Part shown: one piece after another, positions 12,676 to 35,172 of the stretch
How positions within the stretch are numbered: the first letter of the stretch is position 1
Layout: each line of letters starts with the position of its first letter
Source of the DNA: an uncultured Ferrovum sp.
Lineage (GTDB): Bacteria; Pseudomonadota; Gammaproteobacteria; Burkholderiales; Ferrovaceae
Direction of reading: 5' to 3'
Assembly (NCBI GenBank): GCA_903909215.1
Contig: CAIVUX010000008.1
Location: 1 to 40,344 of the forward strand
DNA length: 40,344 nucleotides
The notes under the pieces: model-generated
Database searches by the model: none
What the model saw: only the letters and a program-made list of their open reading frames with translations
Told to the model about the DNA's origin: nothing
Translations under genes and position numbers: made by a program

Positions 12676-13662
12676 ATGCATAGCCAATCGAATCCTTTTT
12701 TAAAGCCACGCAGTATTGACGTGCAGAACGTTTCCCCCACCTACGCCAAGGTGGTGATGGAACCTTTCGAGCGCGGCTACGGCCATACGCTGGGCAATGC
12801 TCTGCGTCGTATTTTATTGTCCTCGATGCCTGGTTTTGCACCCACCGAAGTGAAAATTTCGGGTGTGCTGCACGAGTACTCCACTGTTGAAGGCGTGCAA
12901 GAAGACGTAGTGGATCTGTTATTGAACCTGAAGGGCATCGTGTTGAAGCTGCACAACAACAGCGAAGCCGTGTTGAAGCTGATTAAAGTTGGCCCTGGTG
13001 TGGTTACCGCCGGCGACATCGAAGCCCAACATGATGTTGAAATTATCAACCCCGAGCACGTCATCGCGCACCTTACCGCCGGCGGCAAACTCGATATGCA
13101 AATTAAAGTTGAACAAGGCCGCGGTTATCAGCCCGCCACTATGCGCAATGTGGATGAAGAGTCCCGTGCTGTAGGCGGCATTATGCTGGACGCCTCTTTT
13201 AGCCCCGTGCGACGTGTAAGCTACGCCGTTGAAAGCGCCCGTGTTGAGCAACGCACCGACCTAGACAAATTGGTCATGGACATTGAAACCAATGGTGCCA
13301 TCGAGCCTGAAGAAGCTGTTCGCTTCGCTGCTCGCGTGTTGATGGAACAACTCAATATCTTCGCCGATCTGCAAGGCACGCCCATGACATTGGAATCCAC
13401 CAAAGCACCGCAAGTAGATCCTATCCTCTTGCAACCCGTGGACGATTTGGAATTGACCGTACGCTCAGCCAATTGCCTGAAAGCCGAAAACATTTTCTAC
13501 ATCGGCGATTTAATTCAGCGCACCGAAACCGAGCTGCTGAAAACACCAAATCTGGGCCGCAAGTCGCTCAATGAAATTAAAGAAGTGTTGGCCACTAAGA
13601 GCTTAACGCTGGGTATGAAACTCGAAAATTGGCCGCCTGTGGGCCTGACCGATCGTCGCTAA
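12676..13662 (+). CDS. rpoA: DNA-directed RNA polymerase subunit alpha
   Basis: This 328-residue protein (E. coli 329) is the alpha subunit that nucleates RNA polymerase assembly. The N-terminal dimerisation domain (about 1-230) contains [20 protein letters not shown] and [21 protein letters not shown] linker leads to the C-terminal DNA/activator-binding domain (about 245-325) with [17 protein letters not shown] and [13 protein letters not shown]. It is 36 nt after rpsD and 29 nt before rplQ. Confidence 0.98.
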
Positions 13663-13691
13663 GCGTCGACCGATTATTTAAGGAAATTATC

Positions 13692-14087
13692 ATGCGTCAC
13701 CGTTTAAGTAACCGCAAATTAAACCGCACCACCAGCCATCGGTTGGCGATGCTTCGCAACATGACCAACTCTTTATTGCGCCATGAGGTCATCAAGACCA
13801 CATTGCCCAAAGCCAAAGAATTGCGTCGTGTGGCTGAGCCTCTCATCACCATGGGCAAGGTGCCCTCACTGGCCAATCACCGCTTGGCCTTCAACCGCCT
13901 GCGCGATCGTGAAAACGTAGTGAAGTTGTTTAAAGAGTTGGGTCCGCGCTACCTTACCCGCAATGGTGGTTACCTGCGTATTCTGAAATTTGGCTTCCGT
14001 CAGGGCGACAATGCTCCCATGGCCTTGGTGGAACTGATGGACCGTCCCGCCGAAACAGCCTCAGCGGAAAATGCGCCTGAAGCGTAA
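13692..14087 (+). CDS. rplQ: 50S ribosomal protein L17
   Basis: This 131-residue protein (E. coli 127) matches L17. The start [20 protein letters not shown] and the internal [19 protein letters not shown] are diagnostic. ATG 13692 follows AAGGAAATT; an in-frame codon at 13629 is inside rpoA and gives no family sequence. It is the last gene of the super-operon and is followed within 25 nt by a strong terminator. Confidence 0.97.
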
Positions 14088-14109
14088 AGAATTGAATGTA
14101 ATACCCCAA

Positions 14110-14136
14110 AACGCCGGCTCAGCCCGGCGTTTTTTT
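14110..14136 (+). terminator. Rho-independent terminator after rplQ
   Basis: The arms AACGCCGG (14110-14117) and CCGGCGTT (14124-14131) pair perfectly over 8 bp around a six-base loop, and a run of seven T (14130-14136) follows. It ends the alpha operon 22 nt after the rplQ stop. Confidence 0.92.
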
Positions 14137-14157
14137 ACGTGTGAACCCGGTGAACCC

Positions 14158-14240
14158 GGGGTCAGACCCCATGGGGGGTCAGACCCCCCATGGGGTCTGA
14201 CCCCAATTATTTTGGTTTTCTGTATTTGGGGTCTGACCCC
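14158..14240. repeat. Left cluster of GGGGTC(A/T)GACCCC palindromes
   Basis: Four copies of a 13-bp near-palindrome lie at 14158-14170, 14175-14187 (inside a longer G6/C6 version, 14173-14189), 14192-14204 and 14228-14240. The first two read GGGGTCAGACCCC; the last two read the inverse form GGGGTCTGACCCC. Copies two and three form a 13-bp stem with a 4-nt loop ccat, almost the same unit as the right-hand cluster. Elements of this sequence are, from memory, REP-type repeats spread by RAYT transposases in proteobacteria; no such transposase is in this window. Confidence 0.85.
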
Positions 14241-14241
14241 T

Positions 14242-14799
14242 ATGGTTGATGCTGCACCATTAGCCACGCACACCGCACCATCGGCTGCAGCGCTCGCACC
14301 CTCTTTTCCAGCGCCCAAGGTTACGGTATCTGTAGTTAAGAGCAGGGATGGTTTTATTGTGGATGCCACATTGGAGGTGGCGGCAGCGCCGGCCACGGTT
14401 TGGGATGTGTTCACAGACTTTGAACACATGACCGCTATTGTCACCAACCTTACATACAGTCATGTGCTAAGTAGCAACGGTAATGTGTGGGTGGTGCAAC
14501 AGAAAGGTGAGGCGAAATTTGGTTTGCTATCCTACCCTTTTGAGTCGGTACGGGAAATTAGAACAGAGCCCATGAAACGCATGATGTCTAAGAATATCTC
14601 AGGCACTTTTAAGAGCATGGAGAGCGAGTTGCAACTCATTCCCACCGCTTTTGGTACAAGTGTGAAGTATCACGCGGAGGGCATCGCCGATTCAATATTT
14701 GCCAAACTGTTTGGCTTATCGTTTATGCGTCATGAGTTTGAAGAGCAATTCACTGCCATGGCAGTGGAGATGCAAAAGCGTCAAATGGCGGCCAAATAG
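14242..14799 (+). CDS. SRPBCC (START-like) domain protein, N-terminus possibly remodelled by repeats
   Basis: The 185-residue product has one SRPBCC/polyketide-cyclase-like domain from about residue 25: FIVDATLEVAAAPATVWDVF is the typical first strand and helix, and SFMRHEFEEQFTAMAVEM is the long final helix. Such proteins bind hydrophobic ligands; the substrate here is unknown. ATG 14242 lies 1 nt after a repeat copy and has no normal ribosome-binding site. TTG 14212 is an alternative start that gives a short hydrophobic segment ending near DAAPLA, resembling a damaged signal peptide. The stop codon shares its last base with the first right-hand repeat. It lies between the rplQ terminator and uvrA (convergent). 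Confidence 0.72.
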   Translation: MVDAAPLATHTAPSAAALAPSFPAPKVTVSVVKSRDGFIVDATLEVAAAPATVWDVFTDFEHMTAIVTNLTYSHVLSSNGNVWVVQQKGEAKFGLLSYPFESVREIRTEPMKRMMSKNISGTFKSMESELQLIPTAFGTSVKYHAEGIADSIFAKLFGLSFMRHEFEEQFTAMAVEMQKRQMAAK

Positions 14800-14830
14800 G
14801 GGTCAGACCCCGCATGGGGTCTGACCCCTA
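14797..14830. repeat. Right cluster of GGGGTC(A/T)GACCCC palindromes (hairpin unit)
   Basis: Copies at 14799-14811 (GGGGTCAGACCCC) and 14816-14828 (GGGGTCTGACCCC) are exact inverse complements separated by gcat. With the flanking TA/TA they form a 15-bp perfect stem. The unit matches copies two and three of the left cluster except for one loop base. It lies between the SRPBCC stop and the uvrA stop, with no T-run on either strand, so it is a structural repeat rather than a standard terminator. Confidence 0.85.
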
Positions 14831-14832
14831 AC

Positions 14833-17673
14833 CTAAAGGTGAGATTTCAAAAAGGCGCCGGTAAAGCTTTTCTTATTAGCAGCTACCTGTGCGGGGGTTC
14901 CTTCTGCGATGATGCGTCCACCCCCTCCGCCCCCCTCAGGTCCTAAGTCCACAATCCAATCTGCGGTTTTAATCACATCCAAGTTATGCTCAATCACTAC
15001 CACGGTGTTGCCGTGATCGCGCAATCGATAGAGCACTTTCAGCAGTAAGTCGATGTCCTGAAAATGCAACCCGGTAGTGGGTTCATCCAAAATGAATAAA
15101 GTGCGGCCGGTATCGCGTTTGGATAATTCTAGCGACAGCTTTACTCGCTGCGCTTCACCACCGGACAAAGTGGTGGCTGATTGACCCAAGGTGATATAGC
15201 CCAAGCCCACATCCAGCAGCGTTTGCAGTTTGCGCGCGATGACTGGCACGGGTTTAAAAAACTCAAACGCTTTTTCTACTGTCATGCGCAGTACGTCGTC
15301 GATGGTTTTTTCTTTGTAATGAATTTCTAGGGTTTCGCGGTTGTAGCGTTTGCCGTGGCACACATCGCAGGGCACATAAATGTCCGGCAAGAAATGCATC
15401 TCTACTTTAATAACCCCGTCGCCCTCGCACGATTCGCAGCGACCTCCTTTGACGTTAAAGGAGAAGCGCCCTGGCCCATAGCCGCGCTCTCGTGCTTGGG
15501 GAATGCCCGCGAAGAGTTCGCGAATGGGCGTGAAGAGACCGGTGTAGGTGGCGGGGTTAGAGCGTGGCGTGCGCCCAATGGGGCTTTGATCTACAGCGAT
15601 TACTTTGTCAAAGTGATCCAAGCCCTCGATGGCGCTATGGGCCGCGGGTTCTGCGTTGCTGCCGTACAAGTGGCGTGCCACGGCATGGTGCAAGGTGTCG
15701 TTAATGAGGGTGGATTTACCAGAACCCGAAACACCTGTGATGCACACCAAAAGCCCCACCGGCAGATGGAGATCCACATTTTTTAAATTGTTACCGCTGG
15801 CACCCCTAATTACCAATTCACGTGCGGCGTCGGGCTTAAGGCGCTTTTCAGGTAAGGCGATGCGGCGCTTGCGTGTAAGGTACTGACCTGTGAGGGAGGC
15901 GGGGTTCTTTTCCACTTGTACCGGCGTGCCGCAGGCCACCACTTCACCCCCATGCTCGCCGGCGCCCGGGCCCATGTCGATGACGTAATCCGCCGCGCGA
16001 ATGGCGTCTTCATCATGCTCTACCACGATCACCGAGTTGCCGAGGTCGCGCAGATGCACCAAGGTTTCTAACAGGCGATGGTTGTCGCGCTGATGCAGGC
16101 CAATAGAGGGTTCATCCAACACATACATCACACCGGTCAATCCAGAACCAATTTGTGACGCCAGGCGGATGCGCTGAGCTTCTCCGCCGGACAGCGTGTC
16201 CGCCGAGCGATCAAGTTGCAAGTAATCTAAGCCCACATTGTTTAAGAATTGCAGGCGCGCCACAATCTCTTTTAGGATGCGCTCCGCGATGGTTTGTTTT
16301 TTACCTGTCAGCTTGAGATCCTGAAACAGCAACAGCGCATCTTTCAGCGGCAGGGCGCTTAATTCGTATAAGGCATGCCCCGCCACCTTTACGTGACGCG
16401 CTTCCACGCGCAGTCGGGCACCACCGCATTCTGGGCATATCTTTTCGTTGAGGAGCTTTGAGAGTTCTTCGCGCACAGTGGCGGAATCGGTTTCGTCATA
16501 GCGGCGATCAAGACTGGGGATAACGCCTTCAAAGACGTGTTCTTTTACACGAAAGCGTCCGCGCTCACCGGGGTAATGAAAGGAAATTTTTTCTTTGGCG
16601 GAACCTTTTAATACAATCTCTTGAATAGCGGCCGGCAACTTTTCAAAAGGGGTGTCGAGACTGAAGTCATAGTGGGCGGACAAGTCGGTGAGCATTTGAA
16701 AGCTGAACTGGTTGCGGCGGTCCCAGCCTTTAATGGCACCCCCGGCCAAACTTAAATTGGGGAAGGCCACCACGCGACGCGGGTCGAAAAAGCTGATGAC
16801 GCCCAAGCCATCGCAATGACTGCAGGCCCCCATGGGGTTGTTGAAAGAGAAAAGCCGTGGTTCCAATTCAGATAAGGAGTAACTGCATACGGGGCATGCG
16901 AAGCGTGCGGAGAATAAATGTTCTTTTCCTGAATCCATTTCTACCGCCAACGCTCGACCATCGGCGTGGCGCAGCGCAGTCTCGAATGATTCGGCCAAGC
17001 GTTGCTTTAAGTCGGGACGTACCTTCACGCGGTCCACCACCACTTCGATGGTGTGTTTGTGGTTTTTTTCTAATTTGGGGGTGGCATCAATATCCACTAC
17101 CTCGCCGTTGATGCGCAGGCGCACAAATCCTTGTGCGCGCAATTCATTAAACAGTTCTTGCTGCTGCCCTTTGCGGCCCACCACCAAGGGCGCCAAAATC
17201 ATCAAGCGTGTGTCTTCGGGCAAATCCAAAACATGGTCCACCATCTGCGCCACACTTTGTGCGGCCAATATGGTTTTATGTTCGGGGCAATAGGGGTCCC
17301 CCACGCGGGCAAATAAAAGGCGCAAATAATCATGAATTTCTGTCACGGTACCCACGGTGGAGCGCGGGTTATGACTGGTGGCTTTTTGTTCAATGGAGAT
17401 GGCGGGTGAGAGACCCTCAATCAAATCGACATCGGGTTTTTCCATGAGCTGTAAAAACTGCCGAGCGTAAGCCGAGAGAGACTCTACGTAGCGACGTTGC
17501 CCTTCGGCATAGAGGGTATCGAAGGCCAGAGAGGATTTTCCCGAGCCCGATAACCCGGTCACCACCACCAGACGATGGCGGGGGATATCAAGATTAATGT
17601 TCTTGAGATTATGGGTACGAGCCCCACGAATGCGAATACTCTCTTGAGAGGGTTTGGTTTGTTTGAGCATCAT
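14833..17673 (-). CDS. uvrA: UvrABC system protein A
   Basis: This 946-residue protein (E. coli 940) is the damage-recognition ATPase of nucleotide excision repair. It has two ABC ATPase modules, with Walker A GLSGSGKS at residues 40-47 and GVSGSGKST in the second half. Zinc fingers are visible: Cys260, Cys263, Cys284 and Cys287 in the first module, and CESC...CDVC in the second. Both signature regions ([14 protein letters not shown] and [13 protein letters not shown]) are intact. It starts at ATG 17673 with a second Met next to it, and is divergent from the MFS gene across 63 bp, an arrangement usual in betaproteobacteria. Confidence 0.98.
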
Positions 17674-28227: not shown

Positions 28228-28263
28228 GTATCAATCAAATAGTGATTGATACAGAATATGCTA
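28217..28263. promoter_or_regulatory. Perfect 21-bp inverted repeat, probable operator
   Basis: Positions 28217-28237 and 28243-28263 are exact inverse complements (21 bp) around the spacer aatag. The core arm reads CATATTCTGTATCAATCA. It covers the promoter -10 and reaches into the toxin start codon at 28258. AbiEi antitoxins are known to bind inverted repeats in their own promoter, so autoregulation by the downstream gene is the likely role. The same repeat in RNA could also hide the start codon. Confidence 0.75.
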
Positions 28264-29052
28264 TATGACCCAACCACTGAAGGTTTCTCACCGCGAATGT
28301 GCGCCATAGACCGCTGTCAGATGGGATTGTTGCGCGAATTGGCGGTGCACTACGACTCCCGGCTTTTCTTGAAGGGCGGTATGGCCATGCGCGCGTTGTT
28401 TGGCAGCCTGCGCCTCACCAAAGATATTGATTTTGAGCGAGCAGCCTCGCTGTCCATTGCAAGCTTACGTAAATCACTTCCCAAGTCTTTAGAAAAAGCA
28501 GCGCTGCTGGCAGGTCTTCAGGAGCCCACCGCTACCGCCACCAAGGTCACAGCAACGACGATTCGTGTGTCGCTGGCGGCACGGCTGCGGGAAGCAGATG
28601 AGGCTGTACAGTATGAGGTGGAGATTTCAGGGCGTGGATTACCGCCAGCGGAGAACCTCGTGCGTCTTAGCGTGGCTCCACCCATGAGTTATCGCATGGC
28701 GCAGTTCACTATTAGCAGTTATGACGCCCATGCGATGGCTGCTGCTAAGGTAGCGGCCTTGCATTCGGATAACCGCAGCGTTCCACGGGATATATTTGAC
28801 CTCAGTGACTTGATTGCGCAGGGCGCCAATCCAGTGACGTTACTGCGCCAGAGGGCCAGTCCAACATGGTTGCGAAGCATTGCCGACAGAGGTATTGAGC
28901 GCACCAGCATTATTGGATGGGGCCGTGCCAACGAGGAAGTTTTGCCCTATCTCCCTGAGAGAGTTCGGGAAACGCTCAGCGCAGCGGATTGGGAAGACAA
29001 ATGCCTTAGGGTCGCTGAAACCGTAGATCAGTGGATCAGGGAAGCGCTATGA
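28258..29052 (+). CDS. AbiEii-type nucleotidyltransferase (toxin component)
   Basis: The 264-residue product has the AbiEii/MenT nucleotidyltransferase pattern. GG at residues 40-41 and the acidic pair Asp56/Asp58 lie in LKGGMAMRALFG followed by SLRLTKDIDFE. Lys164 and Arg177-Asp178 lie in AAAKVAALHSDNRSVPRDIF, the third family motif. Such toxins transfer nucleotides, in MenT to tRNA ends. A TTG at 28246 could add four residues, but ATG 28258 is preferred; it lies in the right arm of the palindrome and lacks a strong ribosome-binding site. Its TGA overlaps the ATG of the partner gene. All key residues are present, so it is probably active. Confidence 0.82.
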   Translation: MLYDPTTEGFSPRMCAIDRCQMGLLRELAVHYDSRLFLKGGMAMRALFGSLRLTKDIDFERAASLSIASLRKSLPKSLEKAALLAGLQEPTATATKVTATTIRVSLAARLREADEAVQYEVEISGRGLPPAENLVRLSVAPPMSYRMAQFTISSYDAHAMAAAKVAALHSDNRSVPRDIFDLSDLIAQGANPVTLLRQRASPTWLRSIADRGIERTSIIGWGRANEEVLPYLPERVRETLSAADWEDKCLRVAETVDQWIREAL

Positions 29053-29768
29053 CGCTATCAGCCAAACAGGCCGTGGAAAAATCCTTGCTAACGCTTGGCG
29101 CGCCGCATGTTGTCACCACGCAGGACCTTAACGCCTACGCTGAATTTGAAACGGGCGCGCGTCCTGCCCCCGCAACCGTCACGCGAATGGCGAACGCGCT
29201 GGCAAAGACTGGTGCGCTGCAGAGGGTGTCGCGCACCGTATATTTGAACAAGCTTGCAGGCCCTACTGTTCAACTGGCAGAGGCTGCCCAATTGATTCGC
29301 CGCGGCGCGGTGGTTAGTCTGGCTTGGGTACTGGAACGCTCAGGAGCGTTAAATAATTTTGGTGATATCGTCACCTGCGTGGTGCCGCTGGTGGTGGGAA
29401 TGGCGCCGCCTCGTGTGGGTGAGCATAAAACGTTGGCAGGCCAGTTCCGTTTTTATGGAATGCCGATCCGTATTGTGAATTGTGGAGCCGCACACGTTGA
29501 GGATGTTCAAGATGTGCGCTACGCCTATCCCCGCGCAACACCTGAGCGCGCGTTGATGGACTGGATTTATCTAGGAAGTTCGCCTCATAGCCGACTGCCG
29601 TTGCCGCCCTTGGATATTCAACTGCACGGAATGAACCAACCTCGATTGAAAAGACTGTCTAAAGTAATGGGCTTGGAAAGCGAGTGGGCCCACTGGTACT
29701 GTAAGTGGCAAAAAAGGGAATCGACCGATGACGTTCGAGAAAACGCTTCTTTAGGCTTGGGGTTTTAA
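29049..29768 (+). CDS. AbiEi-type antitoxin / transcriptional regulator
   Basis: The 239-residue product has an N-terminal winged-helix region (about 1-75: PATVTRMANALAKTGALQRV, then SRTVYLNKLAG) followed by a domain seen in AbiEi-like proteins (VSLAWVLERSGALNNFGD; YAYPRATPERALMDWIYLG). It probably neutralises the upstream toxin-type protein and represses the operon through the palindrome. ATG 29049 overlaps the toxin stop (ATGA) and follows AGGGAAG; the in-frame GTG 29031 is less likely. In known abiE operons the antitoxin gene comes first, so this order is reversed. Confidence 0.75.
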   Translation: MTLSAKQAVEKSLLTLGAPHVVTTQDLNAYAEFETGARPAPATVTRMANALAKTGALQRVSRTVYLNKLAGPTVQLAEAAQLIRRGAVVSLAWVLERSGALNNFGDIVTCVVPLVVGMAPPRVGEHKTLAGQFRFYGMPIRIVNCGAAHVEDVQDVRYAYPRATPERALMDWIYLGSSPHSRLPLPPLDIQLHGMNQPRLKRLSKVMGLESEWAHWYCKWQKRESTDDVRENASLGLGF

Positions 29769-34378: not shown

Positions 34379-34480
34379 TGGTTACAAAAAAGAGGTAACC
34401 ATTTTTGGCCAGCTTGGCCAAATACTGCATCATTAGAATAAACTGCACCATTCTGCAGAATAACGAGGGGATTTTTCCGG

Positions 34481-35008
34481 ATGCTCGAGATCGTCAAGCT
34501 GGCCCTGCGACGTCCCTATACCTTTGTCGTTCTTGCGCTGCTGATCCTTATTTTTGGGCCCCTCGCCGCCCTGCGAACGCCCACCGATATTTTTCCCGCC
34601 ATTCGCATCCCGGTGATCAGCGTGGTGTGGAGCTATACCAGCATGCAGCCCCAGGACAAGGCGGGGCGCGTGATTTACAGTTACGAGCGTTCACTGAGTT
34701 CCACGGTCAACGACATCGAGCACATCGAGTCACAGTCCTTGCCCGGTTACGGCATCGTCAAAATTTTTTTCCAGCCCACGGTGGATATCCGCACTGCTAC
34801 GGCGCAGGTCACTTCCATTTTTCAGACCGTATCGAAGCAAATGCCGCCTGGCATTACCCCGCCGCTGATTCTCAACTACAATGCCGCCACGGTGCCGATA
34901 ATTCAGCTGGCGCTGTCCAGCAACAAGCTCTCCGAGCAGTGGCTGTTCGATATGGGCCAGAACTTCATTCGCCCGCAACTGGCTACTGTTGCAGGAAGCG
35001 CCATACCT
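34481..35008 (+). pseudogene. RND efflux permease, N-terminal fragment
   Basis: The first 176 codons match the start of an RND-family inner-membrane pump: a first transmembrane helix (about residues 10-30), then LRTPTDIFPAIRIPVISVVW and the porter-domain start up to QLATVAGSAIP. Full proteins have about 1030-1060 residues, so more than 80% is missing. The frame then runs MTWQ and stops at 35023, inside sequence that belongs to another gene. It lies behind the porin terminator. A peptide could still be made, but it cannot be a pump. Confidence 0.85.
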
Positions 35009-35172
35009 ATGACTTGGCAATGAATCATTACCGGAAAGGTGCTGTCAGTTATCTGCAGGTGATCGATGCCGAAAATGCCAAATTGCGTATCGAACGTGAA
35101 GCCCTCAACATCCAAGTCTCACGCATGCAAGCCAGCATTGGCCTGGTAAGGGCCATTGACGGGGACTGGTAG
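35005..35172 (+). pseudogene. Outer-membrane efflux protein (TolC/NodT type), C-terminal fragment
   Basis: In a different frame from the RND fragment, the sequence reads TYDLAMNHYRKGAVSYLQVI, then DAENAKLRIEREALNIQVSR and ends RAIDGDW. This is the characteristic last helices and tail of an NodT-type efflux outer-membrane factor (about 55 of 450-480 residues). Together with the RND fragment it marks one deletion that removed the rest of the pump, any adaptor gene and most of this gene. The longer open frame starting at 34405 is antisense-like noise upstream of the junction. Confidence 0.82.

Follow-up and report, generated by a model that had tools for sequence, protein, structure and literature searches.

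What do six copies of one palindrome do around a single small gene of an uncultured Ferrovum sp.? The stretch of DNA that was analysed, called the window here, is 40,344 bases long, and the 13-mer GGGGTC(A/T)GACCCC was found in it exactly at 14158, 14175, 14192 and 14228 to the left of the gene and at 14799 and 14816 to its right. An earlier note, made from the letters of the window, had counted these as the sole occurrences there, and both the exact scan and a scan with two mismatches allowed confirmed this: no further match appeared even in the latter, for which dinucleotide shuffles of the window gave a mean of 0.66 matches and a maximum of 3. The same note had seen one identical hairpin unit on both sides, which held only roughly. 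On the left, three copies make up a 47-nt palindrome with centres in the order A, A, T and the spacers atgg and ccat, whereas the right side carries a two-copy hairpin of 30 nt (Table 1).

Table 1. The SRPBCC gene and its flanking palindromes, in positions of the window.
Feature	Position	Strand	Basis
47-nt palindrome (hairpin) made up of three 13-mers	14158..14204		Exact matches, fold, terminator scan
Lone 13-mer, 1 base ahead of ATG 14242	14228..14240		Exact match
SRPBCC gene (polyketide cyclase / lipid transport type), an ancestral resident	14242..14799	+	Pfam, relatives, synteny
Right hairpin: 13-mer, gcat, inverted 13-mer (30 nt)	14799..14828		Exact matches, fold

As RNA, the left hairpin was predicted to fold with −52.8 kcal/mol (z −7.4) and the right one, of 13+4+13 nt with the loop gcat, with −33.5 kcal/mol (z −5.9). 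The right hairpin begins with the final G of the gene's stop codon TAG (14797-14799). Most likely the hairpins act as stem-loops bordering the gene. A consensus terminator scan listed the left 47-nt hairpin as terminator-like; the right hairpin was absent from its list, as was a putative intrinsic terminator of rplQ recognised by eye upstream of the left group (fold −16.3 kcal/mol, z −2.9). A known RNA at 13600-15400 was considered and rejected, since the 21 Rfam matches all scored, among the matches listed, under the gathering scores. Elsewhere in the window, two adjacent frames at 28246-29768 appeared by eye to encode a nucleotidyltransferase toxin of AbiEii type and, after it, an antitoxin of AbiEi type. 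Between two porin-like genes, at 34405-35172, lie short overlapping frames that resemble, also by eye, the beginning of an RND efflux pump gene and the terminal part of one of TolC type; these remnants look deletion-joined.

The protein encoded by the bracketed gene exceeded the cut-offs of both PF10604 and PF03364 and had no relatives among solved structures at E<=0.01. Two starts can be read, ATG 14242 and TTG 14212. Six orthologues read on the right strand (L030, L032, L034, L035, L037, L038) showed a hydrophobic leader by eye, and since the left repeats occupy the leader region of the window gene, its leader and start are uncertain. Relatives of the gene were present in 10 of the 31 other genomes of the family, and the genome of the window (G000) held a single copy. 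In genus g8 (G028-G031) the gene followed rpoA-rplQ in all four genomes; at the other six orthologue loci rplQ was absent from the fetched flank. No copy of the 13-mer was found in the four g8 genomes or at any of the ten orthologue loci. Because the gene stands beside rplQ in g8, with the 13-mer missing there and at all ten loci, it is older than the surrounding repeats, which arrived around it.

This bears directly on the cassette that the earlier note had suspected, namely an element of REP/MITE type with the two hairpin groups as its ends and the SRPBCC gene as cargo. To left and right, the hairpin groups do come within a base of the gene, as the ends of such an element might. The note itself had stated that an ancestral gene at this position, free of repeats in relatives, would refute a cassette, and that is what the rplQ neighbourhood revealed in four of four g8 genomes. 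The gene is also present in one copy, hairpin units recur across G000 without it, and the joint movement of cargo and terminal repeats that marks a MITE-type cassette is at odds with the g8 synteny. We therefore reject a mobile cassette as very improbable and regard the gene as an old resident. That the six palindromes bracket it by position alone belongs to an explanation which, taken as a whole, we trust slightly more than we doubt.

A genome-wide count, which the earlier note had suggested, yielded 329 exact 13-mers in the 1,534,657 bases (1.53 Mb) of G000 and 0 for a reversed control pattern, so that the motif is not confined to the window; 78 inverted pairs had a loop of 3-6 nt. The 31 other family genomes contained 0-8 copies each. 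Any copy at all was found in 7 of the 32 genomes: G000, two with 1 each, and four out of five in genus g6, with 4-8 apiece. In this set G000 alone represents its genus, and with one genome compared the gain of sites is not datable. Among 399 genomes sampled from the order, the pair occurred in two, G000 and G291 (3 pairs). In named genomes at least 80 loci hold it; among the matches listed, those in Alcaligenaceae bacterium CAII-53 were dense, with a scatter of others in such genera as Hyphomicrobium, Rugamonas, Duganella, Massilia and Marinobacter. The plasmid and phage collections gave no match to the 30-nt unit with the loop GCAT. The hairpin unit was also seen on two IMG/VR contigs (L198, L199) that share one sample number.

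The supposition that the motif is of REP type was supported by its company in other taxa. A Y1_Tnp match was obtained in 15 of the 18 genomes searched, G000 being among the three without. Eight of the 30 fetched Y1 loci, from seven genomes, carried GGGGTCNGACCCC (L204-L208, L214, L218, L228) and 22 did not; the copy at L208 has a C at its centre. In CAII-53 (L206) the unit GGGGTCAGACCCC-GCAT-GGGGTCTGACCCC is the same as the right hairpin of the window, and its last base lies within the stop codon TAG of the RAYT. Nine Y1 proteins matched NF047646, the profile for REP-associated tyrosine transposases; the six that come from motif loci (L204-L208, L214) scored 59-79 bits, under its cut-off of 80; L218 and L228 were assigned to Y1 by Pfam match only. 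The RAYT-type transposases at L204-L208 and L214 have a palindrome without a GTAG foot at their side and possibly their own REP type.

A RAYT elsewhere in the genome, as the earlier note had envisaged, did not turn up. In G000 neither PF01797 nor profile A1, made of six RAYTs (five at the motif, L204-L208, and a relative of these, L226, without the motif at its locus), returned anything at E<=1. Contigs break at repeats, so a RAYT may be hidden in an assembly gap of G000, and this caveat is a serious one; 7 of 25 sampled contig starts had the motif within 140 bases. The family's own Y1 genes were rejected as a source of the motif, their 12 fetched loci (L016-L027) being without GGGGTCNGACCCC.

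The copies in G000 are mostly exact. In a first sample of 425,244 bases (the window plus L039-L069), 111 copies fell into 66 clusters, of which 32 were single. Besides the 111 exact copies there were 22 that were one base off, 21 two off and 117 three off, where a Markov model gave 0.2, 0.6, 16.8 and 154.8. Four control palindromes had 0 exact copies each, and a chance origin was rejected on these counts. Slow decay of old copies was rejected as well, as there was no excess of three-off matches and hardly any of two-off ones. The one-off changes fell on the outermost bases in 17 of 22 cases in G000 and in 66 of 95 in CAII-53, which bears a RAYT, and for this reason the outer-base bias does not favour any one drive. 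From a further 141,234 bases, the second sample, came 25 copies, grouped into 9 single clusters and 7 multiple ones.

Pairs and larger clusters, built from a 13-mer, a short loop and an inverted 13-mer, form very stable hairpins. In two-copy clusters the order A then T held for 24 of 25 in the first sample and for 4 of 5 in the second. CAII-53 had 310 copies with 11 single clusters in 424,910 bases, from stretches chosen for holding pairs, against 111 copies and 32 single clusters in the first sample of G000. Complementary flanks of at least 5 nt were seen at 7 of 60 clusters, all seven among the 24 pairs, a number reached by none of 2000 permutations. As a source of pairs, fold-back synthesis is suggestive only, since three of the seven have tandem GGGGTT-like repeats or the start of a contig close by. 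At L059:64, L048:3568 and L045:11481 the pairs sit inside longer, locus-specific inverted flank repeats (11-19 nt exact), as if extended by fold-back.

Many copies lie within genes. Frames free of stops over 80 codons or more contained forty clusters of the first sample; with a limit of 150 codons, 19 of 32 single and 14 of 34 multiple clusters did so, and in the second sample 6 of the 9 singles were in frames. Twenty frames were scanned, all with Pfam hits, and after L062 and L051 had been left out 18 were aligned with six family genomes. Twelve cases stood in place without net length change, five were longer by 6-16 residues and one was ambiguous. Thirteen of the copies stand alone, in genes which, from Pfam hits, we take to encode an aldehyde dehydrogenase, an M23 peptidase, an MFS protein (aligned with a single relative), T2SSM, GlyS, a 3-hydroxyacyl-CoA dehydrogenase (HCDH), NadC, RmlA, a HisE-like protein, a rhodanese, PmbA/TldD, an S1-type nuclease and Fpg. 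All twelve in-place cases are among these; their length around the motif is kept except that a distant HCDH differs by one residue and a single T2SSM row has gaps that offset each other. In the rhodanese the region around the motif is variable, and it was put in neither class. The motif occurs within the housekeeping genes glyS, nadC and fpg and a type II secretion (T2SS) gene, the frame showing no visible damage (e.g. L046:12974).

The five longer proteins were IDH and FMO, with exact pairs, PepP and MnmE, where a second copy is one base off, and PabB, with a partial second copy. The last three are singles by exact count, and the division into single and multiple was made after viewing the alignments, these three being set apart for the imperfect or partial neighbour copy; if only exact matches are counted, insertions make up 3 of 16 singles. 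The tested in-gene pairs and larger clusters were extra sequence. At the DNA level, the share of sites at which relatives differed was 0.446 in the motif and 0.367 in its flanks (12 genes, 51 comparisons, a few genomes being double-counted through overlapping loci). The former value is well under the 0.75 expected if random sequence had been overwritten, which suggests that the in-place sites were near-native before. Codon use was rejected as an explanation: when synonymous codons were shuffled in the 18 aligned genes, 1000 rounds gave a mean of 0.48 copies and a maximum of 4, against 20 observed, although these genes had been picked for holding the motif and the result is no clean probability. 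Since 12 of the 18 aligned cases, all lone in-gene copies, leave the length unchanged, an outcome not expected under an insertion model, part of the copy population seems to have arisen by substitution in place, in the manner of uptake sequences or HIP1, and not by insertion.

A similar situation was encountered in genus g6, where the motif lies inside lspA in four genomes and in murF-like and dut-like frames (assigned by eye) in two each. Compared with solved LspA chains, g6 LspA showed no more than a one-residue gap at the motif, the copy being in place. The lspA 13-mer was identical in all four g6 genomes compared, while the flanks matched between subgroups at 173-175 of 240 positions. At all three sites the motif was absent from G000, whose Dut-like protein has equal length and different residues at the g6 position. 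The copies in the lspA, murF-like and dut-like genes are thus not common to the two genera.

On balance we favour, with slightly better than even confidence, the view that the highly iterated motif is the REP sequence of a RAYT family of other proteobacteria and exists here in two forms, as pairs and as in-place singles. It would have entered as a REP, its RAYT having since been lost or being concealed in an assembly gap. A sequence-specific bias would convert near-matches into exact matches, and the pairs would be made through local inverted duplication or REPIN insertion. For the drive our leading guess, and a tentative one, is a bias through putative motif-dependent DNA uptake and recombination, by analogy with known uptake sequences; a drive of this type fits both the in-place copies and the inverted pairs. 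ComEC was matched in G000 (E 1.3e-54) and also in 10 of 14 control genomes. It is conceivable, though we consider it rather doubtful, that a REP palindrome without its transposase now spreads by in-place conversion, biased through uptake or repair, with the pairs as secondary inverted duplications.

We are about as sceptical of an ordinary REP/REPIN family, all copies of which would have been spread in trans by a RAYT that is recently lost or lies in a gap, and whose in-gene singles would be inserts trimmed by selection. Such a family would agree with the same motif at RAYT genes elsewhere, the fixed polarity of the pairs (24 of 25 and 4 of 5, A then T), the breaking of contigs at repeats and the in-gene pairs being inserts. 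It is harder to reconcile with the 12 in-gene singles that keep the native length and often near-native residues too, the more so as a 13-base insert would shift the frame, nor did PF01797 or the A1 profile find a RAYT in G000. The palindrome within genes in place, and one-off copies deviating mainly at the outermost base as described for HIP1 in part of PMC4390886, might also call to mind a HIP1-like process, in which exact copies would be fixed, without function, by a hypothetical methylation-dependent repair bias at the GGGTC/GACCC core. Such a process leaves the hairpin pairs and the RAYT link in other taxa unexplained, and it seems to us quite improbable. Our preference stays with a motif of REP origin that occurs in two forms.

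How does this motif compare with known systems? REPs are thought to be spread by RAYT transposases and uptake sequences by biased transformation, USS being grouped with DUS as DNA uptake sequences. Like REPs and REPINs, the motif is a high-copy palindrome with inverted pairs of fixed polarity and is found with the same sequence at the RAYT genes of others; unlike them, it occurs in a genome without a detected RAYT, and its in-gene singles are apparently substitutions instead of inserts. Parts of PMC6006769 describe a GT[AG]G foot for the REPs of five subclasses and atypical REPs for subclass 2.6 and class 3. This foot was not seen at the G000 motif: the third base outside the 13-mer was G in 6% of multiple and 13% of single copies, and the flanks favour A/T. 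In-frame REP inserts within genes are known, as mentioned in parts of PMC3733652 and PMC6006769, and are an analogue of the longer in-gene cases here, not of the in-place ones.

With the DUS of Neisseriaceae the motif shares hundreds of exact copies, in-place copies within genes and inverted pairs able to form stem-loops, intragenic copies and such pairs being reported for DUS in part of PMC3630211. It differs in being itself palindromic and a REP elsewhere. With HIP1 of cyanobacteria it has in common that it is an iterated palindrome whose one-off copies deviate at outer bases (as part of PMC4390886 reports for HIP1), but it is 13 bp long with a central A/T and has hairpin pairs and a RAYT link in other taxa. 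No literature naming this palindrome was found, and no paper with the full 13-mer. Papers retrieved with GGGGTCAGA and 'repeat' included, by title and among the matches listed, none on this motif, and those with GGGGTC, palindrom and transposase none on REPs, judging by title.

In conclusion, the palindrome points to a REP type without a GTAG foot. A RAYT-associated motif in place within the genes of a genome in which no RAYT was detected makes the border between REPs and uptake sequences testable. Should a REP palindrome deprived of its transposase indeed spread by in-place conversion, this would connect REPs to motifs of the uptake type and reveal a way for such motifs to originate.
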